Assembly (NCBI GenBank): GCA_017415025.1
Contig: JAFQJH010000004.1
Span: 124,001 to 188,000, forward strand
Direction: 5' to 3'
DNA from: Clostridia bacterium
GTDB taxonomy: Bacteria > Bacillota > Clostridia > Oscillospirales > Acutalibacteraceae
DNA length: 64,000 nucleotides
Part shown: one piece after another, positions 48,614 to 57,802 of the stretch
How the letters are laid out: every line of letters begins with the position of its first letter
Position numbering within the stretch: the first letter of the stretch is position 1
Translations under genes and position numbers: made by a program
Notes under the pieces: generated by a model
Told to the model about the DNA's origin: nothing
The model's input: only the letters and a program-made list of their open reading frames with translations
Databases searched by the model: none

Positions 48614-48662
48614 TTACGATAGCATATTATGAATTTTATATAATGAGGGAGAATTGGTTTTT

Positions 48663-50045
48663 ATGCTTTCCAACACAGAAAAGACAATGGAAAAAATCGT
48701 CGCTCTCTGCAAGGGCAGAGGCTTTGTCTACCCCGGCAGTGAGATTTACGGCGGACTTTCAAACTCTTGGGATTTCGGCCCTCTCGGCGTTGAATTCAAG
48801 AACAACGTTAAACGCGCATGGTGGCAGAAATTCGTTCAGGAAAACCCGTATAATGTAGGTCTTGACTCTGCAATCATTATGAATCCGCAGATCTGGGTTG
48901 CTTCAGGTCACGTCGGCGGCTTCTCTGACCCGCTTATGGACTGTAAGGACTGTAAGACACGTCACAGAGCAGACAAGCTTATTGAGGATACAGGCGTTAA
49001 TCCCGCAGGCTGGAGCTTTGAGGAGATGAGCAAGTACATCGCTGATAACGGTATTGTATGTCCCGATTGCGGCGGTCAGAACTTTACGGACATCCGTAAG
49101 TTCAACCTTATGTTCAAAACCTTCCAGGGCGTTACGGAGGATGCAAAGAACGAGCTTTACCTTCGTCCCGAAACTGCACAGGGTATCTTCGTAAACTTCC
49201 AGAACGTTCAGCGTACAACCCGCCGCAAGGTTCCCTTCGGTGTTTGTCAGATAGGTAAATCCTTCAGAAACGAAATCACTCCGGGTAACTTCATTTTCCG
49301 TACACGTGAGTTTGAGCAGATGGAGCTTGAATTCTTCTGCAAGCCCGGCACGGAGCTTGAGTGGTTCTCATATTGGAAGGACTATTGCCACAAGTGGCTT
49401 CTTTCACTCGGCATCAGAGAGGAAAATCTCCGTCTTCGCGACCACGAGCAGGAAGAGCTTTCACACTATTCAAACGCAACAACAGACTTCGAGTTCCTCT
49501 TCCCCTTCGGCTGGGGCGAGCTCTGGGGCGTTGCTTCAAGAACAGACTTTGACCTTACACAGCATCAGAACACATCGGGCAAGGGTCTTGAATACTTCGA
49601 CCAGACAACAAACGAGAAGTATCTTCCCTACGTTATCGAGCCGTCACTCGGTGCTGACCGTGTAACACTCGCATTCCTTTGCGACGCTTACGACGAAGAG
49701 GTTGTTGATGCAGAAAAGGGCGACACAAGAGTTGTTCTCCGCTTCCACCCTGCTCTTGCTCCCATTAAGGCGGCAGTTCTTCCCCTTTCAAAGAAGCTCA
49801 ACGATAAGGCTGAGGAAGTTTACGCTATGCTTTCAAAGAACTTTATGGTTGAATTTGACGATGCAGGCTCAATCGGTAAGCGTTACCGCCGTCAGGACGA
49901 AATCGGCACACCGTTCTGCATCACCTACGACTTTGACTCGATTGAAGACGGCTGTGTAACAATCCGTGACCGTGACACAATGGCTCAGGAGCGTATCGCA
50001 ATTGACAAGCTTTGTGAATATATCAGGGAAAAAATCACATTTTAA
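48663..50045 (+). CDS. glyQS: Glycyl-tRNA synthetase, single-chain alpha2 type
   Basis: 460 residues. The enzyme charges tRNA-Gly using ATP. Class II motifs: [20 protein letters not shown] at the N-terminus with GPLG, motif 2 in [20 protein letters not shown] and motif 3 [10 protein letters not shown] (~345), then the anticodon-binding domain. It is the dimeric type. [13 protein letters not shown] and CPDCGGQN form a zinc-like insertion. The ATG at 48663 is preferred (GGGAG upstream); a TTG three codons earlier is too near. The oxaloacetate decarboxylase series begins 37 bases downstream without a terminator, so read-through is possible. Confidence 0.96.
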
Positions 50046-50082: not shown

Positions 50083-51459
50083 ATGAACAAGATTAAATTT
50101 ACAGAAACCGTGCTTCGTGACGCTCAGCAGTCACTTATCGCAACAAGAATGTCCTTTGATGACTTTGAGCCCGTTCTTGCAGAGCTTGACAAGGCAGGCT
50201 ACTACTCACTCGAGTGCTGGGGCGGTGCAACATTTGACTCCTGCCTTCGTTACCTTAACGAGGATCCGTGGGAGAGACTCCGCAAAATCCGTAAGGCTTG
50301 CCCGAACACAAAGCTCCAGATGCTTCTTCGCGGTCAGAATCTTCTCGGCTATAAGCACTATCCCGACGACGTTGTAAGAAAGTTCGTTGAGAAGAGCGTT
50401 GAAAACGGAATTGACATCATCAGAATTTTTGATGCTCTCAATGACGTCCGTAATATCGAGGTTGCAGTTAAGGAGGCTATCCGTTGCGGCGCACACGCAT
50501 CAGGTACAATCTGCTACACACTCAGCCCCGTACACGACATTGATTCATACATCAAGCTTGCCAAGGATATGGAAGCTATGGGTGTTCACTCAATCTGCAT
50601 CAAGGATATGGCAGGTATCATCAGCCCGAAGGAAGCTTACGACCTTATCAAGGCTCTCAAGGCTAACACAAAGCTTCCCATCATCCTTCACACACACTCA
50701 ACAACAGGTCTTGCCGCAATGACTCTTCAGAAGGCTGCAGAAGCAGGCGTTGACGTTATCGACACAGCGATCTCCTGTATGTCAGGCGGTACATCACAGG
50801 CGGCAACCGAAACAATGAACTATGTTCTTACACAGAACGGCTTTGAGACAGGTCTTGACACAAAGGTGCTCAAGAACATCAACGATTTCTTCAAGCCCGT
50901 ACGTGCAAAGGCTCTCGAATCAGGTCTTCTCAACCCCGTTGTTCTTGCAACAGATACAGACGCTCTGAGCTATCAGGTTCCCGGCGGTATGCTTTCAAAC
51001 CTTGTTGCACAGCTTACAGCACAGAACAAGATGGATAAGTTCGAGGAAGTTCTTCAGGAAGTTCCGAAGGTACGTGCTGACCTCGGTTATCCGCCGCTCG
51101 TTACTCCTATGAGCCAGATGGTCGGTGTTCAGGCTACGCAGAACGTTCTTCTCGGCAAGTACAAGAACGTTTCAAAGGAAGTCAAGAACTACGTCCGCGG
51201 TGAATACGGTAAGGCTCCCGGCGAAATCGACAAGGATCTTATCACAAAGGTTCTCGGCGACGAGAAGCCCATCGAAGGCAGATTCGCAGACTCTCTTCCT
51301 GCAGGCTTCGAGGCTGCAAAGGCAGAAATCGGTGCAAAGGCAAAGAGCGAAGAGGACGTGCTTTCTTACATTGCTTTCCCCGCACAGGCAGAGGCTTTCT
51401 TCGACAAGAGAGACGAGCTTGAGAGAAACACCTTCAGATACACCATCAGAGAAGTATAA
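50083..51459 (+). CDS. oadA: Oxaloacetate decarboxylase alpha-type carboxyltransferase
   Basis: 458 residues, DRE-TIM barrel family of OadA/pyruvate carboxylase subunit B. It moves CO2 from oxaloacetate to biotin. Seen: ETVLRDAQQSLIATR, ECWGGATFDSCL, MLLRGQNLLGY, RIFDALND, CIKDMAGIISP with the metal-binding Lys, and LHTHSTTG with two His ligands. It ends without a biotin domain; biotin is carried by the separate small proteins downstream. Malonyl- or methylmalonyl-CoA decarboxylase alpha subunits belong to another family, so oxaloacetate (or a similar 2-keto acid) is the best substrate guess. It heads the set of membrane subunits. Confidence 0.9.
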   Translation: MNKIKFTETVLRDAQQSLIATRMSFDDFEPVLAELDKAGYYSLECWGGATFDSCLRYLNEDPWERLRKIRKACPNTKLQMLLRGQNLLGYKHYPDDVVRKFVEKSVENGIDIIRIFDALNDVRNIEVAVKEAIRCGAHASGTICYTLSPVHDIDSYIKLAKDMEAMGVHSICIKDMAGIISPKEAYDLIKALKANTKLPIILHTHSTTGLAAMTLQKAAEAGVDVIDTAISCMSGGTSQAATETMNYVLTQNGFETGLDTKVLKNINDFFKPVRAKALESGLLNPVVLATDTDALSYQVPGGMLSNLVAQLTAQNKMDKFEEVLQEVPKVRADLGYPPLVTPMSQMVGVQATQNVLLGKYKNVSKEVKNYVRGEYGKAPGEIDKDLITKVLGDEKPIEGRFADSLPAGFEAAKAEIGAKAKSEEDVLSYIAFPAQAEAFFDKRDELERNTFRYTIREV

Positions 51460-51470
51460 GGAGGCCAAAA

Positions 51471-51794
51471 ATGGATTTTTCAATTTTGACTCAGCCTCCC
51501 GTTCCTGCGTTTGTAGTTGCAGGATTTATGGTTGCATTCATCCTTTACGTCTATATAGCAAAAGCAATCAATGCTAAGAAAGCTCCCGTTGAGCCGAAAA
51601 AAACTGCTCCCGTGACCCCTGCAAAGGCTCCTGCCACGGCAACAAACGCACCGGGTACATCCTCGGGCGACCTTGAGCTTGTCGGCGTTGACGAAAAGAC
51701 GGCAGCAGTTATTATGGCAATCGTATCTGACAAGAGCGGCATTCCGCTCAACAGACTTCAGTTTAAATCAATCGCTCTGATGGAGGACAAATAA
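51471..51794 (+). CDS. Small membrane subunit of Na+-pumping decarboxylase, copy 1 (OadG-like)
   Basis: 107 residues. One membrane helix (~10-33, PAFVVAGFMVAFILYVYIAK), an Ala/Pro/Thr linker (~38-65) and a short C-terminal domain ending LVGVDEKTAAVIMAIVSD then GIPLNRLQFKSI. Such subunits hold the alpha and beta subunits together and bind Zn or Na site elements in the gamma/delta family. AGGAGG before the ATG, 11 bases after oadA. The C-terminal domain is nearly the same as in copy 2 at 53539. Confidence 0.8.
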   Translation: MDFSILTQPPVPAFVVAGFMVAFILYVYIAKAINAKKAPVEPKKTAPVTPAKAPATATNAPGTSSGDLELVGVDEKTAAVIMAIVSDKSGIPLNRLQFKSIALMEDK

Positions 51795-51795
51795 A

Positions 51796-52182
51796 ATGAA
51801 ATACGTAGTTACATTAAACGGAAAAAATTATGAGGTAGAGGTAAACGAGACAGAAGCTGTTGTAACAAACGTTTCTGACGCAGTTTACGCTCCCGCTCCC
51901 GTTGCAGCTCCTGCTCCCGCCGCAGCACCCGCTCCCGAGGCAGCACCTGCACCGCAGGCTGTTTCGGCACAGGGCACACAGATTGTTGCTCCGATGCCCG
52001 GTTCAATCATCAACATCAACGTTTCTGCAGGTCAGGCTGTCAAGGCAGGCGATGTACTTATCGTTCTTGAGGCTATGAAGATGGAAAACGACATCACTGC
52101 TCCCTGTGACGGTGTTGTCAAGCAGGTCGTTACCGTGAAGGGCGCAACAGTCAACACAGACGACGTTCTTCTCGTTATCTGA
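51796..52182 (+). CDS. Biotin carboxyl carrier protein, copy 1
   Basis: 128 residues. A short N-terminal part (MKYVVTLNGKNYEVEVNE), a flexible Ala/Pro linker (~36-60) and a biotinyl domain with the EAMKMEND site, Lys (~residue 93) being the biotinylation residue. It shuttles CO2 between the carboxyltransferase and the membrane beta subunit. It starts one base after the stop of the previous gene. Confidence 0.93.
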   Translation: MKYVVTLNGKNYEVEVNETEAVVTNVSDAVYAPAPVAAPAPAAAPAPEAAPAPQAVSAQGTQIVAPMPGSIININVSAGQAVKAGDVLIVLEAMKMENDITAPCDGVVKQVVTVKGATVNTDDVLLVI

Positions 52183-52197
52183 GCGGAGGTATAGTAT

Positions 52198-53301
52198 ATG
52201 GACGTTTTACTCGAAAACTTTTCCACCGTTACCTTTCCGCAGGTAGCGATGTGGATTATCGGTGCAGTTCTCATTTTCCTTGCTATCAAGAAGGAAATGG
52301 AGCCGTCACTTCTTCTCCCGATGGGCTTCGGTGCAATCCTTATCAACCTCCCCAACTCGGGTGCACAGCACATTATCGACGTTATGTTCCGTGTAGGTAT
52401 TGACAATGAGTTCGGTGAGCTTATGCCCCTTATACTCTTTATCGGTATCGGTGCGATGATCGACTTTACACCTCTTCTTACAAATCCGAAGCTTATGCTT
52501 TTCGGTGCGGCGGCACAGTTCGGTATCTTCTTTACACTCTGTCTCGCTTCACTTCTCGGCTTTGATATCAAGGATGCCGCTTCAATCGGTATTATCGGTG
52601 CGGCAGACGGCCCGACAGCTATCGCAGTTGCAATGGAGCTCGGCTCAAAGTACATCGGTGCTATTATGGTTGCCGCTTACTCCTATATGGCTCTCGTTCC
52701 CCTTGTTCAGCCGCCTATCATCAAGCTTTGCACAACAAAGAAAGAGCGTCTTATCCGTATGGATAACACAGCAGGCAAGGCTCCCTCAAAGCTTACAAAG
52801 ATTCTCTTCCCGATTGTTGTTACAATCATCGTTGGTCTTGTAGCTCCCGATGCGGTTGCTCTTATCGGTTTCCTTATGTTCGGTAACCTTATCCGTGAGT
52901 GCGGTGTTCTTAACTCACTTTCGGAAACTGCACAGAAGGTTCTTGCAAACCTCATCACAATCTTCCTCGGAATCACAATTGCCGCTCGTATGCGCGCTGA
53001 AGAATTCCTTACAGTTGATACACTTATCATCATCGGTCTCGGTCTTTTCGCATTCATCTTCGACACATTCGCAGGTGTTATGCTTGCAAAGTTTATGAAC
53101 CTCTTCTCAAAGAAGAAGATAAATCCGATGATCGGTGCTGCGGGTATTTCTGCTTTCCCGATGTCCGCACGTGTTGTTCACAAGCTTGGACTTGAGGAGG
53201 ATAACCAGAACTTCCTTCTTATGCATTCAATCGGTGTTAACGTTTCGGGTCAGATTGCTTCCGTTATCGCGGGCGGTCTTATCCTCACATTCTTCAGATA
53301 A
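52198..53301 (+). CDS. oadB: Na+-translocating decarboxylase beta subunit, copy 1
   Basis: 367 residues, 9-10 membrane helices of the OadB/GcdB/MmdB family. It decarboxylates carboxybiotin and drives Na+ outward. Key blocks: AADGPTAIAVA (~138) with the Na+-binding Asp, a conserved Tyr/Ser face near AYSYMALVPLVQPPI, and GVNVSGQIASVIAGG near the end with Asn and Ser ligands. Compared with copy 2 at 54335 it is shorter by 28 residues, which in copy 2 form an extra N-terminal loop. GGAGG lies upstream of the ATG. Confidence 0.92.
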   Translation: MDVLLENFSTVTFPQVAMWIIGAVLIFLAIKKEMEPSLLLPMGFGAILINLPNSGAQHIIDVMFRVGIDNEFGELMPLILFIGIGAMIDFTPLLTNPKLMLFGAAAQFGIFFTLCLASLLGFDIKDAASIGIIGAADGPTAIAVAMELGSKYIGAIMVAAYSYMALVPLVQPPIIKLCTTKKERLIRMDNTAGKAPSKLTKILFPIVVTIIVGLVAPDAVALIGFLMFGNLIRECGVLNSLSETAQKVLANLITIFLGITIAARMRAEEFLTVDTLIIIGLGLFAFIFDTFAGVMLAKFMNLFSKKKINPMIGAAGISAFPMSARVVHKLGLEEDNQNFLLMHSIGVNVSGQIASVIAGGLILTFFR

Positions 53302-53319
53302 ACGGGAGGTAAAAAAACT

Positions 53320-53469
53320 ATGACTATTGATTTTAACGCTTTCCTCAATTCCCTCCCCTATATGGGCAAGGGTATGCTCGGCATTTTCGTTGTTACAATC
53401 GTTATCGTCCTTGTCGTTAACGCACTCAACAACATTCCCGAGAAAAAAGAAAAGAAGAATAAGGATTAA
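53320..53469 (+). CDS. 49-residue membrane peptide, epsilon-like subunit
   Basis: Starts MTIDFNAFLNSLPYMGKGML and ends with a basic tail (EKKEKKNKD). One membrane helix (GIFVVTIVIVLVVNAL) follows a GKGMxGIF-type turn that recalls the N-terminus of OadG-like subunits. Methylmalonyl-CoA decarboxylase of Veillonella has a similarly small epsilon subunit. GGGAGG lies seven bases before the ATG, 18 bases after oadB copy 1, so it is a real gene in this operon. A terminator hairpin follows. Confidence 0.75.
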   Translation: MTIDFNAFLNSLPYMGKGMLGIFVVTIVIVLVVNALNNIPEKKEKKNKD

Positions 53470-53480
53470 TTCATCAGTAG

Positions 53481-53515
53481 CCTGTTTTTGCGAAGTGAAA
53501 ACAGGTTGCTTTTTT
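53481..53515 (+). terminator. Terminator between the two decarboxylase modules
   Basis: CCTGTTTT (53481-53488) pairs with AAAACAGG (53498-53505), followed by TTGCTTTTTT. The next gene's GGAGG is at 53527; no promoter fits between, so it acts as an internal attenuator. Confidence 0.75.
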
Positions 53516-53538
53516 AAAAAACACAAGGAGGTTACAGT

Positions 53539-53946
53539 ATGAAAATTACTCCTCAATTGCTTGGTATTTTCACTAACATTTACGGCTCTTACGAAGCGAT
53601 GACAATTTCGCGAGCACTTATGATTGCCCTCGTTGGCTTTATGACGGTACTTGTAATTCTCGCAATCATTGCCCTTTTCATCAAGCTGATTGCTTTTATC
53701 TTCTCTGCGATTGAAAAGAAAAACGAGAAAAAAATCGAAACAATTATCACGCCTGTTGAGCACAGCAATGCTACCGCACCTTCCGTCGGAGTTACCTTGC
53801 CCGAGACAGAATCACAGGGTGAGCTCGAGCTTATCGGTGTTGACGAGCCGACAGCGGCAATGCTTATGGCTCTCGTAAGCTATAAAACAGAAATCCCGCT
53901 CAACAGACTTGCTTTCAGGTCAATTAAACTTGTGGAGGACGAATAA
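53539..53946 (+). CDS. Small membrane subunit of Na+-pumping decarboxylase, copy 2 (OadG-like)
   Basis: 135 residues. One membrane helix (~26-50, ALMIALVGFMTVLVILAI), charged linker (EKKNEKKIE), and a C-terminal domain LIGVDEPTAAMLMALVSY, EIPLNRLAFRSIKL, alike to copy 1 but with a longer N-terminal part. It probably replaces or joins copy 1 in a second complex. AGGAGG precedes the ATG; its stop abuts the next ATG (one base apart at most). Confidence 0.8.
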   Translation: MKITPQLLGIFTNIYGSYEAMTISRALMIALVGFMTVLVILAIIALFIKLIAFIFSAIEKKNEKKIETIITPVEHSNATAPSVGVTLPETESQGELELIGVDEPTAAMLMALVSYKTEIPLNRLAFRSIKLVEDE

Positions 53947-54321
53947 ATGAAATACGAAGTATTTTTGAACAATAAAAAATATGAAATTGAGGTTGACGAG
54001 TGCTCCGTTGCACTCAAGGGTGTAAGCGAGGTTGCCGCTCCTGCGGTCAGCGCTCCCGTTGCATCCGCCCCCGCTCCTGCTCCTGCGGCTGCCCCGACAG
54101 CTTCTGCATCGGGCACAAGCGTTGTCTCCCCGATGCCCGGCACAATCCTTGCCGTCAACATCACAAACGGACAGACCGTCCGTGCAGGCGAAGTACTCTT
54201 TATCCTTGAGGCTATGAAAATGGAAAACGACATCGTTGCTCCCTGCGACGGTATCGTAAAGCAGGTTCTCGTTACAAAGGGCACAACAGTTGAGACCGAC
54301 CAGGTTCTTGCAATAATCTGA
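53947..54321 (+). CDS. Biotin carboxyl carrier protein, copy 2
   Basis: 124 residues with the same plan as copy 1: [18 protein letters not shown], an Ala/Pro linker, and EAMKMEND with the biotinylation Lys. The N- and C-terminal parts are clearly paralogous to copy 1, the linker is not. It starts at the base after the previous stop. Confidence 0.93.
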
Positions 54322-54334
54322 CGGAGGGCTGACT

Positions 54335-55522
54335 ATGGAATTGATTACTAACCTGCTCGCAGGTTTATGGGAATCATCGGGTTTTGCACTCCTGACGTGG
54401 CAGAACCTTGTTATGATTGGCGTTGCAATCGTGTTCCTTATCCTTGCGATTGTTAAAAAATTCGAGCCTCTGCTGCTCGTACCGATTGCTTTCGGTATTC
54501 TTCTTGCAAACCTTCCCGGCTCGGGTGTTATGGATGACGTTACACTCTCGCAGGCATTCGGCGGTGACGGCTCACTCGCAGGCACGGGCAGCTGGTACGA
54601 ATCGGGCGTTCTGCGTATACTTTACGCAGGCGTTAAGTCGAGTATCTTCCCCTGCCTTATCTTCCTCGGTGTCGGTGCGATGACGGACTTCGGCCCGCTT
54701 CTTTCAAACCCGATCAGCCTTCTTCTCGGCGCGGCGGCACAGCTCGGCATCTACGTTGCATTCATCATTGCAATTCTCCTCGGCTTTACTCCGCAGGAGG
54801 CTGCTGCAATTTCAATCATCGGCGGTGCTGACGGCCCGACGGCTATCTGGCTGACAGGTAAATTGGCTTCTCACCTTCTTGCTCCGATTGCGCTCGCCGC
54901 ATATTCATATATGGCGCTCATTCCGCTTATTCAGCCGCCGATTATGAAGCTTCTTACAACAAAAAAAGAGCGTGAAGTCAAAATGACTCAGCTCCGTAAG
55001 GTTTCAAAGACAGAGAAGATTGTTTTCCCCGTTGTTGTTCTGGTTCTTATCGCACTTATTCTCCCGTCCGTTGTGCCTCTTCTCGGTATGCTTATGCTCG
55101 GCAACCTCTTCCGCGAATGCGGTGTTGTTGAAAGACTTTCCGACACGGCGCAGAACGCAATGAACAACATCGTCGTTATCCTGCTCGGTGTTACGGTCGG
55201 TGCTACGGCTAACGGCGAGAGCTTCCTTAAGGTACAGACTCTCGGCATTGTTGCCCTCGGTCTTACGGCATTCGCCTTCTCAACGGTCGGCGGTGTGCTC
55301 CTCGGTAAGCTTCTCTACGTTGTAACAAAGGGTAAAATTAATCCGCTCATCGGTGCGGCAGGCGTTTCCGCTGTTCCTATGGCGGCACGTGTTGCACAGA
55401 ATGAAGGCAGAAAATATAACCCCACAAACTTCCTTCTTATGCACGCTATGGGCCCGAACGTTGCAGGTGTTATCGGCTCGGCTGTTGCCGCAGGCTTCCT
55501 GCTCCTGATGTTCAGTAACTAA
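54335..55522 (+). CDS. oadB: Na+-translocating decarboxylase beta subunit, copy 2
   Basis: 395 residues, OadB family. Blocks: GGADGPTAIWL with the Na+-binding Asp, AAYSYMALIPLIQPPIM and GPNVAGVIGSAVAAG. An extra loop after helix 2 (FGGDGSLAGTGSWYESG) is not in copy 1. Both copies keep all ion-site residues, so both should pump. A 16-bp perfect hairpin follows (55533-55575). Confidence 0.92.
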   Translation: MELITNLLAGLWESSGFALLTWQNLVMIGVAIVFLILAIVKKFEPLLLVPIAFGILLANLPGSGVMDDVTLSQAFGGDGSLAGTGSWYESGVLRILYAGVKSSIFPCLIFLGVGAMTDFGPLLSNPISLLLGAAAQLGIYVAFIIAILLGFTPQEAAAISIIGGADGPTAIWLTGKLASHLLAPIALAAYSYMALIPLIQPPIMKLLTTKKEREVKMTQLRKVSKTEKIVFPVVVLVLIALILPSVVPLLGMLMLGNLFRECGVVERLSDTAQNAMNNIVVILLGVTVGATANGESFLKVQTLGIVALGLTAFAFSTVGGVLLGKLLYVVTKGKINPLIGAAGVSAVPMAARVAQNEGRKYNPTNFLLMHAMGPNVAGVIGSAVAAGFLLLMFSN

Positions 55523-55532
55523 AATAAGATAA

Positions 55533-55575
55533 AATAAACAGTATTGAGTTTTAATCAAGCTCAATACTGTTTATT
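55533..55575. terminator. Bidirectional terminator between the pump locus and the XRE gene
   Basis: Perfect 16-bp inverted repeat: arms 55533-55548 and 55560-55575 with an 11-base loop, then CTTTT. The stop of the convergent XRE gene lies in the second arm. Confidence 0.88.
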
Positions 55576-55771
55576 CTTTTATGTGCTTTATAATTTCTTC
55601 TACTTCGCAATCAAGAGTATAACACAGCGCATCAAGGGTTTTTGTACTGATTGCTTCACCATGCTTAATACGGTGAATTGTGTTTGCCGAGAATCCCTCT
55701 TTATAAATCAAATGATACTCCGTGATGCCCTTTTTGAACAGCGTTTTATAGAACGGCTCATAACTAATCAT
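55571..55771 (-). CDS. XRE-family helix-turn-helix regulator
   Basis: 66 residues from the ATG at 55771 (GGTGA upstream). Helix-turn-helix: YHLIYKEGFSANTIHRIKHG then STKTLDALCYTLDCEVEEII, the small YozG/Cro-like type. It would bind DNA as a dimer. Divergent from the secreted protein gene at 55892, it shares a 120-base gap that carries three copies of ATACTCAA. Regulation of that gene and of itself is inferred. Its coding sequence is AT-rich compared with the genes before it. Confidence 0.85.
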   Translation of the reverse strand: MISYEPFYKTLFKKGITEYHLIYKEGFSANTIHRIKHGEAISTKTLDALCYTLDCEVEEIIKHIKE

Positions 55772-55795
55772 ATCTATCACCATTCAAATTTTATC

Positions 55796-55891: not shown

Positions 55892-57802
55892 ATGAAAAAA
55901 TGCAAAAAACTATTAGCAACAATTCTCGCTGTTATGGTTGTGTTATCTTCTTTGTCTATAACAGCCTTCGCCGCCGGAGACACAATGGGTACTGCAACGA
56001 GTATGACGTTAGGCTCAAGTTATAGTGGAACAATATCCAACAATAGTACAACAGAATTCTATAAATTTACACTTTCATCATCAGGAAGAATAAACATAAA
56101 ACTAACAGCATATTTAGCTTATCTCAGTTTTTATGTATATGATTCTAATGGCACCGAAGTTTGGAAAAAAACAGGACAATATTGGAATAGTACCACTCAA
56201 CAGCTTAGTTTTAATGAAAACGTAGATTTAACATCAGGAACTTATTATTTTGTCATACAACAAAGTTATGGATATGAAGGTTCATACAATGTCAAAATTA
56301 CTTTTACAAGTGCAAATGAAAACTACAAAGAAACCTTTGGTGGAAGCAACAACAAAATTTCTGCTGCAAGCACACTCAGTTTGAACACAACCACATACGG
56401 ACAAATTGCAAGTAACGATGATAGAGATATCTATAAATTCACAATGCCAACCTCAGGCAGACTCCATATTAACCTTTCCGGTAATTTGAATTATCTTAGT
56501 TTCTATATATACGATTTTGAAGGAAACGAAATATGGAAAAATACTGGCAAATATTGGGATTCTACAGCCGAAAAACTTACATTTGAAAAAAATTGTGATT
56601 TATCATCTGGTGTCTTTTATTTCGCGATACAGCAAAGCTACGATTATACTGGAAATTATTATTTTACAACTAACTACACATCAGCAAACGAAAGTTTTAA
56701 GGAAACAGACACAAAAACTGACAATAATATAAATTCTGCTAATTCAATTTCATTAAATACACAGTATAACGGAAATATCGGAATAAATGATGAAAAAGAC
56801 TTTTACAAATTTTATTCATCTGCTGGAAAACAAAAGCTAACACTTAGTTCCAATTCAACATATCTTAGTTTTTATCTCTATGATACAAACGGTAACGAAG
56901 TTTGGAAAAGTACAGGAAACTATTGGAACAGCACAACACAAAAACTTCAATATGAAAAGGAAATTGAAATAAAAACTTCTGGCACATATTATTTTGCTGT
57001 TACAAGAAGTTATGACTATACTGGTTCATATACTTTTAACATTGGTAACGGAACAACACAACCACAAACATATAAGATTACCTATAACGCCAATGGTGGT
57101 AGTGTTTCACCGTCCAATGCAAGTGTTATATCCGGAAGTTACGTTACACTTCCCACTCCAACCAAAAGCTACACATTGTATTATAATGCAAATGGTGGTA
57201 ACGGAGCACCTTCATCACAAAAAATAAATGTATATTGTAAAGGTTGGTCCTCAAGCAGTTCTGCAACAAACGCAAGCTACTCTTGTGGCTCATCTTACAA
57301 ACCAACATCGAACACCACTTTATATGCCGTATGGAATTCCTCTGCTGACACCTATTTGTCAGGTAGCAAGCCTACACGTGCCGGTTACACTTTCCTTGGG
57401 TGGTCTACCGAAAGTAATGCAACAAGTGCCTCATTTTCCTCGGGTGCCAACGTAACTGTTTATAATAATGTTACTATATACGCCGTATGGCAAAAAAATT
57501 CATCTTCAGAACCCGAACAGCCTTCTTCTCCCTCAATTGAATATAAAACAATTTTTTTGAATTATAAAGATACTTACAAAATTAACGTTAACAATTTTGC
57601 TGTGCTTGAATATGTTGCCGAAAACGATTCAATCGTATCTGTAGATTCAGAAGGCACAGTAAAAGCAAATTCTACCGGCATATCAAGCGTATATGTTTAT
57701 GACAAGAATTACGATATTAGAGAGGTTTATACCTTTGAAGTTGATTACACTTGGTGGCAGTGGATTATTGTAATCGTTCTCTTCGGTTGGATTTGGTATT
57801 GA
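55892..57802 (+). CDS. Secreted, membrane-tailed protein with three PPC-like repeats and InlB-type repeats
   Basis: 636 residues. Signal peptide (1-28, ending AFAA). Three ~110-residue repeats (~30-140, 150-260, 275-385) share YDxxGxExWKxTGxYW and SGxYYFxIQQSYxYxG, close to bacterial pre-peptidase C-terminal (PPC) beta-sandwiches. Then InlB B-repeat-like units (~394-530, ITYNANGG, FLGWSTES, LYAVW) and a bacterial Ig-like domain (~550-618). The end is a Trp-rich hydrophobic tail (WWQWIIVIVLFGWIWY) with no cell-wall sorting motif, so it may be membrane-anchored. The gene is AT-rich, with AAT/AAA/ATA codons, unlike its neighbours, which suggests recent acquisition. Surface adhesion is an inference. 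Confidence 0.8.
   Translation: MKKCKKLLATILAVMVVLSSLSITAFAAGDTMGTATSMTLGSSYSGTISNNSTTEFYKFTLSSSGRINIKLTAYLAYLSFYVYDSNGTEVWKKTGQYWNSTTQQLSFNENVDLTSGTYYFVIQQSYGYEGSYNVKITFTSANENYKETFGGSNNKISAASTLSLNTTTYGQIASNDDRDIYKFTMPTSGRLHINLSGNLNYLSFYIYDFEGNEIWKNTGKYWDSTAEKLTFEKNCDLSSGVFYFAIQQSYDYTGNYYFTTNYTSANESFKETDTKTDNNINSANSISLNTQYNGNIGINDEKDFYKFYSSAGKQKLTLSSNSTYLSFYLYDTNGNEVWKSTGNYWNSTTQKLQYEKEIEIKTSGTYYFAVTRSYDYTGSYTFNIGNGTTQPQTYKITYNANGGSVSPSNASVISGSYVTLPTPTKSYTLYYNANGGNGAPSSQKINVYCKGWSSSSSATNASYSCGSSYKPTSNTTLYAVWNSSADTYLSGSKPTRAGYTFLGWSTESNATSASFSSGANVTVYNNVTIYAVWQKNSSSEPEQPSSPSIEYKTIFLNYKDTYKINVNNFAVLEYVAENDSIVSVDSEGTVKANSTGISSVYVYDKNYDIREVYTFEVDYTWWQWIIVIVLFGWIWY

Follow-up and report, generated by a model that had tools for sequence, protein, structure and literature searches.

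A 64,000-nucleotide stretch of the genome of a Clostridia bacterium of the family Acutalibacteraceae (the window; positions 124,001 to 188,000 of contig JAFQJH010000004.1, assembly GCA_017415025.1) encodes an oxaloacetate decarboxylase (OAD) type Na+ pump operon in which a single alpha-subunit gene, oadA, is followed by two sets of gamma, biotin carrier and beta genes. The best explanation of the locus as a whole, and one that we regard as probable, is that one OadA alpha works with two alternative membrane halves to give two pump isoforms sharing their alpha subunit. Judged from the gene trees, set 2 (G2, BC2 and B2) is the native half of the operon and set 1 (G1, BC1, B1 and a 49-amino-acid mini-gamma) is a guest whose beta belongs to a different, old clade.

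All genes lie on the plus strand between 50083 and 55522, in the order oadA-G1-BC1-B1-mini-gamma-hairpin-G2-BC2-B2. The coordinates and order of one oadA and two sets given in a preliminary description of this DNA are thereby confirmed; all seven genes of its inventory stand, but it overlooked the mini-gamma and the hairpin between the sets. The oadA product (50083-51459), the sole OadA found in the genome, joins an HMGL-like carboxyltransferase domain to the PYC_OADA association domain and has no biotin domain. It is an OadA-type carboxyltransferase by PRK09282 (695 bits, cut-off 402) and falls under the equivalog cut-offs of PRK12331 (705 against 718) and oadA TIGR01108 (653 against 756.5), the latter model taking in a fused biotin domain that the window OadA does not have. 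Among Pfam and NCBIfam models, OAD_beta matches B1 (52198-53301) with 493 bits and B2 (54335-55522) with 528 bits, and the window betas contain the ADGPTAI and GVNVSG/GPNVAG motifs. Both carriers, BC1 (51796-52182) and BC2 (53947-54321), are Biotin_lipoyl proteins with the biotin lysine in EAMKMEN. OAD_gamma matches G2 (53539-53946) with 39.2 bits and G1 (51471-51794) with 27.0 bits, exactly the cut-off of 27; the mini-gamma (53320-53469), whose reading frame has its own GGGAGG, gives a partial match under the cut-off (positions 3-40 of 76, E 0.0015). Identity between the sets is 46% for the betas, 52% for the carriers and 46% over 101 columns, mostly tail, for G1 and G2. The same order in several independent genomes rules out an assembly chimera: it recurs in six further genomes of the genus, so the locus is no assembly accident, and a form without BC2 occurs in four more loci, two in genus genomes and two outside the genus.

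The beta tree (115 rows from chosen loci, quick method, LG+G4) places B1 (67 rows) and B2 (48 rows) on the two sides of one branch supported at 100% by the SH-like approximate likelihood ratio test (SH-aLRT). Window B2 falls inside a 24-row set (99) of which every row adjoins an OadA, and window B1 inside an 11-row set (99) together with the solo B1 genes of loci L191 and L192 (L and three-digit G numbers denote surveyed loci and genomes). This split therefore argues that the operon was already in place when the second module was added to it, and tandem duplication of the sets is ruled out by the tree. The sets had been called paralogous, which holds only in a deep sense: they are not copies made in place, and the gamma of set 1 looks split. 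Had set 2 belonged with a different carboxyltransferase, as the preliminary description allowed, a shared alpha would have been in difficulty; the tree instead nests B2 with the betas of OadA operons. Scores hinting at two beta types had also suggested set 2 as an orphan of a methylmalonyl-CoA decarboxylase (Mmd) or glutaconyl-CoA decarboxylase (Gcd) pump, a candidate rejected with B2 being an OadA-type native beta. Its nearest named matches (best 80 of a longer list) are metagenome-assembled genomes of Clostridia and Oscillospiraceae, several of the top ones from ruminant gut, which suggests a host of that kind.

The gamma subunits also differ between the sets. G2 is a canonical gamma with membrane helix and alpha-binding tail, resembling the gamma of plain operons of the same genus, while in set 1 these features are spread over two proteins. 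Against a tail profile every one of the 25 G1 and G2 scored 67.3-84.4 bits, and none of 16 mini-gammas exceeded 2.5 bits; these include that of L188, a longer gamma that still matches OAD_gamma over positions 2-75 of 76. A helix profile, trained on residues 1-70 of 32 plain gammas (L235 and L173 being the same locus), gave 24.4-70.1 bits on 11 of 11 G2 N-termini and 0.7-15.6 on 13 of 14 G1, while 15 mini-gammas, with that of the goat entered twice, scored 0.3-13.5; the remaining G1, at 48.2 bits, is that of L109, an operon with a B2-type beta first. Because plain gammas of the same genus sit in its training set, the helix test favors G2. From these domain patterns the gamma of set 1 looks split: G1 has the conserved C-terminal, alpha-binding tail and, in place of the usual membrane helix, a non-canonical one at its N-terminus, and the mini-gamma has a membrane helix like the N-terminal half of OadG, with the tail absent. 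In Salmonella the gamma tail is required for alpha binding and dispensable for beta binding (PMC7274780).

Mapped to Salmonella OadB, the Na+-site residues D203, S382 and N412 and the residue E40 are intact in B1 and B2 of the window. A survey of 104 unique B1 and 129 unique B2 sequences found no variation at E40, D203, N373, G377, S382 and N412 in any B1, and none in B2 save for a single row with gaps at three of these sites. Of the cytoplasmic-face residues, R304 and N311 are kept in the window B2 and not in the window B1, which has S304 and K311, as well as I148 and K258. Across the survey the R304 site in B1 is S in 78, N in 9, A in 5, Q in 4 and R in 4, against R in 115 of 129 B2; the N311 site is K in 43, N in 39 and G in 17, against N in 127 of 129; and the T148 site is I in every one of the 104, where 128 of 129 B2 have T. 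Among Salmonella mutants, E40A has a severe effect, E40 being critical for carboxybiotin decarboxylation, and R304A and N311A are moderate, requiring threefold more Na+ for half activity without strong effects on Na+ binding; N311A additionally lowers the maximum by more than 40%, R258A has little effect, and in Klebsiella substitutions equivalent to T148 are not severe (PMC7274780). With a published mutant effect that is moderate, R304 was dropped as an essential residue. Since R304 and N311 are absent from B1, it probably needs more Na+ than B2 for half-maximal speed, by analogy with these mutants.

Codon comparisons place both sets under purifying selection. With the window set against six loci of the same genus (simple Nei-Gojobori method), the median ratio of nonsynonymous to synonymous substitution rates (dN/dS) was 0.094 for oadA, 0.176 for G1, 0.074 for BC1, 0.037 for B1, 0.085 for the mini-gamma (4 usable pairs), 0.144 for G2, 0.092 for BC2 (5 usable pairs) and 0.041 for B2, with G1, G2 and the mini-gamma near saturation. 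This range of 0.037-0.176 over eight genes, together with intact motifs, biotin lysines and Na+ residues, bears out the earlier impression that neither set is decayed.

The genomes surveyed are consistent with an alpha shared by two pumps, one of the options proposed earlier. The draft genome of the window (2.09 Mb, 83.6% complete) contains two OAD_beta and one PYC_OADA match, two biotin-carrier matches, both in this locus, one biotin-ligase-family match, and no match to PF01039 or to PF02785 (biotin carboxylase). A PF01039 carboxyltransferase alpha is the defining feature of methylmalonyl- and glutaconyl-CoA decarboxylases, the Gcd alpha of C. symbiosum being of this type. Across 18 genomes of the genus (drafts, 61-97% complete), OadA was found in 15, exactly once each, and PF01039 in 0 of 18; PF02785 matched none of the 18, nor any of 5 relatives from elsewhere, with control genomes positive in 13 of 14. 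By the searches made, the only biotin enzyme detected in the genus is this pump, which would mean that it has no standard acetyl-CoA carboxylase; and because no other carboxyltransferase or biotin carboxylase was detected there, one alpha must serve both betas. Both sets occur in nine of the 18 genomes, with BC2 in G000, G152, G153, G158, G159, G161 and G162 and without it in G156 and G160. Set 2 alone, as a plain oadA-G-BC-B2 operon, occurs in four (G063, G150, G163, G164) and set 1 alone in one (G157, 72% complete), where the sequence past the mini-gamma corresponds to what comes after B2 in the window (81.5% over 373 bp). In G151 (61% complete) a plain operon is cut by a contig end and a distant B1 (61%) with a mini-gamma lies on another contig; G154 has only a 143-amino-acid fragment, and the genus search gave no match in G155 and G165.

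These counts leave little room for the idea, also raised in the preliminary description, that the sets serve two donor acids: a single carboxyltransferase type was detected in the genus, once per genome. That each half works for a different carboxyltransferase reaction seems to us scarcely credible. Related betas are used by Mmd-type operons elsewhere, but the lack of PF01039 matches, the single OadA and the nesting of B2 with OadA-operon betas all argue otherwise. The same genomes bear on a single mixed complex, with B1 and B2 in one beta trimer round one alpha assembly and the gammas and carriers in different places. The single operon would suit such a complex, as would the one carrier present for both betas in L171, L172, L184 and L034, and the Gcd of C. 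symbiosum has two different biotin carriers per complex (PMC7145394). We nevertheless hold a mixed complex to be unlikely, as B1 and B2, 46% identical, are deeply diverged, each is paired with its own gamma type, and certain genomes of the genus have B1 only or B2 only.

The B1 lineage extends well beyond this genus. We collected 96 B1 loci with flanks, comprising 84 family rows (part of at least 132 B1-scale rows listed for the family, in 300 genomes), nine further genus loci, L034, L060 and L109; the goat locus is counted twice (L034 = L197). Of the 96, 79 lack any OadA, MmdA, carrier or B2 within 5 kb in the same orientation, and 17 (16 distinct) have one. Both flanks reach 5 kb or more in 59 of these 79 solo loci; a mini-gamma is present in 77. 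Over all 96, a mini-gamma was found by profile within 700 nt downstream in 94 (L258 and L294 were missed); the profile was built on the 48 found by regular expression (48/96), which are among the 94. The adjacent cases are 12 rows of composite or G157 type (one locus twice), L060 (mmdA-BC-B2-B1-mini-gamma), L109 (oadA-G-BC-B2-B1-mini-gamma), L188 (B1-gamma-BC-B2-oadA), L261 and, loosely, with other genes between, L265. L261 is an oadA-G-BC-B1-mini-gamma operon with no B2 within its 13-kb locus; its genome, G192, has further beta-type matches whose places are not listed. Read by eye, 20 solo pairs of B1 and mini-gamma have neighbors that vary from locus to locus, save among the near relatives L193/L194, L195/L201/L203 and L202/L208. 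A copy of the Na+-hairpin peptide of the betas, roughly IGIIGGADGPTAIF, also occurs outside any beta, at L184:5456-5809, L273:5089-5277 (minus strand), L279:7388-7591 and L139:1381-2916 (minus strand), in three small gamma-type proteins and one 512-amino-acid protein of no recognised kind.

A careful OadA tree (28 rows, several with long end branches) distributes the composite operons over four backbones, with plain operons next to them on every one, and a single origin of the composite operon on the OadA backbone was rejected by the approximately unbiased (AU) test (p 8e-67; 6.5e-05 without L034). The composite B1s form two groups, L034 with L171 and L172 and the window type with L184, and their union in one clade was marginally rejected (p 0.043). 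The carrier tree is weakly resolved: with L184 left out, the composite BC1 cluster at 88/68, one clade for all BC1 was retained by the test (p 0.148), and BC2 as a recent copy of BC1 is disfavored by the tree yet, at p 0.089, short of rejection. In the OadA and carrier trees the outgroup L261, and in the carrier tree L109 too, was counted as plain though carrying B1. In the B2 part of the beta tree, L171, L172 and L184 group with the plain L190 (88-95 SH-aLRT), a grouping that the OadA tree does not show, so the composites may have arisen fewer times and exchanged parts since. Moreover, the B1 of L184, from another genus, is 95% identical to that of the window, against 80% for OadA and 78% for B2; the B1 cassette therefore seems to have moved independently. 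Such a patchy distribution, with composites next to plain operons on every backbone and a window-type B1 on a different one, would suit a second half that is a horizontally acquired redundancy in passing, still unlost and with no separate role. We consider this highly improbable, as purifying selection acts on both halves across many substitutions (median dS 0.59 for B1 and 0.89 for B2) and the same order recurs.

Between the sets lies a terminator-like hairpin with a T-run (53476-53515, plus strand; predicted folding free energy -19.3, z -3.4), equaled by 2 of 200 shuffles. Terminator and promoter scans overall gave no excess over shuffles (8 vs 6.7 and 6 vs 7.3), so the case for this hairpin rests on its fold and its recurrence. 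The interval after the mini-gamma outfolds dinucleotide shuffles in nine of ten composite intervals (0-13 of 300 as low) although the sequences differ, and each of the nine has a hairpin with at least five T in the eight positions behind it. By eye, L176 has a similar hairpin, and in L183 a different terminator-like hairpin stands after the mini-gamma. As the sequence leaves little promoter room between the window hairpin and the ribosome site of G2, we infer attenuation, not a second promoter.

We can outline how two isoforms might work. The second half, from an old mobile beta lineage, would have been joined between oadA and the native half. OadA would transfer the carboxyl group of oxaloacetate, a substrate suggested by the family name, to biotin on BC1 or BC2, and the carboxybiotin would be decarboxylated at B1 or B2, coupled to Na+ export. 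A single gamma would serve half 2, its helix holding beta and its tail alpha; in half 1 these jobs would be divided, with the mini-gamma on B1 and G1 anchoring alpha by its tail. The hairpin may set the expression ratio of the halves via partial termination.

Several observations weigh against this model. The placing of the G1 helix near B1 is a guess. The L175 interval has no stable hairpin (199 of 300 shuffles as low), and the T-tails are weak in several of the others. N311 is retained in 39 of 104 B1 sequences, and the mutants on which the higher Na+ requirement is modeled are alanines in another enzyme. Absences within the genus, including that of set 2 from G157, are soft because the genomes are drafts. 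With 78 of 84 family-row B1 genes solo together with their mini-gamma (among the matches listed), the tie of B1 to OadA is not general; and of 16 genomes with B1 that were selected because they have just one beta match, four (G134, G218, G120, G039) gave no OadA match. Their B1 and mini-gamma loci are L253, L256, L304 and L281, in that order. By length, the PF01039 matches in G134, G120 and G039 are of the acetyl-CoA-carboxylase kind, and G218 has none. Draft assemblies may account for the lack of an OadA match: G039 is 72% complete, and G134 has no biotin carrier match despite having parts of acetyl-CoA carboxylase, which points to gaps in that assembly.

A possible, if doubtful, alternative makes B2 the only beta that works with OadA; B1 and the mini-gamma would then be no decarboxylase beta but an accessory Na+ transporter or brake carried along in the operon. 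The lack of an alpha-binding tail in the mini-gamma would fit such a role, as would the 79 of 96 B1 loci away from other pump genes, the loss in most B1 of R304, N311 and T148, and the four genomes without an OadA match. It is harder to reconcile with the invariance of E40, D203, S382 and N412 in all 104 B1, with the set-1-only locus of G157 and the oadA-G-BC-B1-mini-gamma operon of G192, and with the BC1 and G1 that accompany B1. The B1-bearing genomes without an OadA match also keep in view a broader and, to our minds, rather unlikely proposal. B1 with the mini-gamma could be an interchangeable, laterally moving membrane half that usually resides away from carboxyltransferases and docks in trans on any biotin carrier; where OadA is unmatched it could use carboxybiotin from acetyl-CoA carboxylase, as an ATP-fed Na+ pump, and the window would represent its capture by an OadA operon.

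Directly 5' of oadA lies what we take to be a glycyl-tRNA synthetase type gene (48654-50045), and a similar reading frame precedes oadA in L034:2744-4144. A small frame just behind B2 (55571-55783, minus strand) presumably encodes a helix-turn-helix regulator; the DNA of this stretch is also found after the mini-gamma in G157. Farther on, 55892-57802 encodes a 636-amino-acid, secreted-looking protein with PPC and Listeria-Bacteroides repeat domains.

A genus in which the alpha occurs with beta 1, beta 2 or both offers a natural series for studying what determines Na+ affinity and coupling in the beta subunit, and whether the link from alpha to beta has to run through a single gamma chain. The solo pair of beta and mini-gamma in much of the family sample poses the question of how carboxybiotin reaches a pump whose carboxyltransferase is encoded elsewhere. 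Among the opening lines of abstracts in the open-access literature we found none that describes an OadB, whether paired or solo, accompanied by an OadG lacking its tail, a search that does not prove absence from print.

The published pumps consulted for comparison have a single type each of alpha, beta and gamma in a complex. The OadGAB enzymes of Salmonella (beta-gamma structure PDB 6iva/6iww) and Klebsiella share with the window an OadA-type alpha, an OadB-type beta with the same Na+ residues, and a gamma with helix and tail (PMC7274780); they differ in having one beta and one gamma gene per alpha and a biotin domain within alpha, where the window has two betas, three gamma-type genes and two separate carriers. 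More than one OAD beta per genome is also found in K. pneumoniae MGH 78578, with three oad clusters, but these copies lie at separate loci near different pathways, in contrast to one alpha and two betas in one operon (PMC2735749). The glutaconyl-CoA decarboxylase of C. symbiosum (GcdA, B, C1, C2, D) likewise has two separate biotin carriers in one pump, and differs in its other kind of alpha, one beta and one small linker subunit (PMC7145394). Oscillospiraceae and related Clostridia also have plain oadA-G-BC-B operons (L035-L043, L173, L180-L182, L189, L190), which fit the earlier remark that known loci usually carry one set: they have the same kind of alpha, G2, carrier and B2 as the window, without G1, B1 and the mini-gamma.

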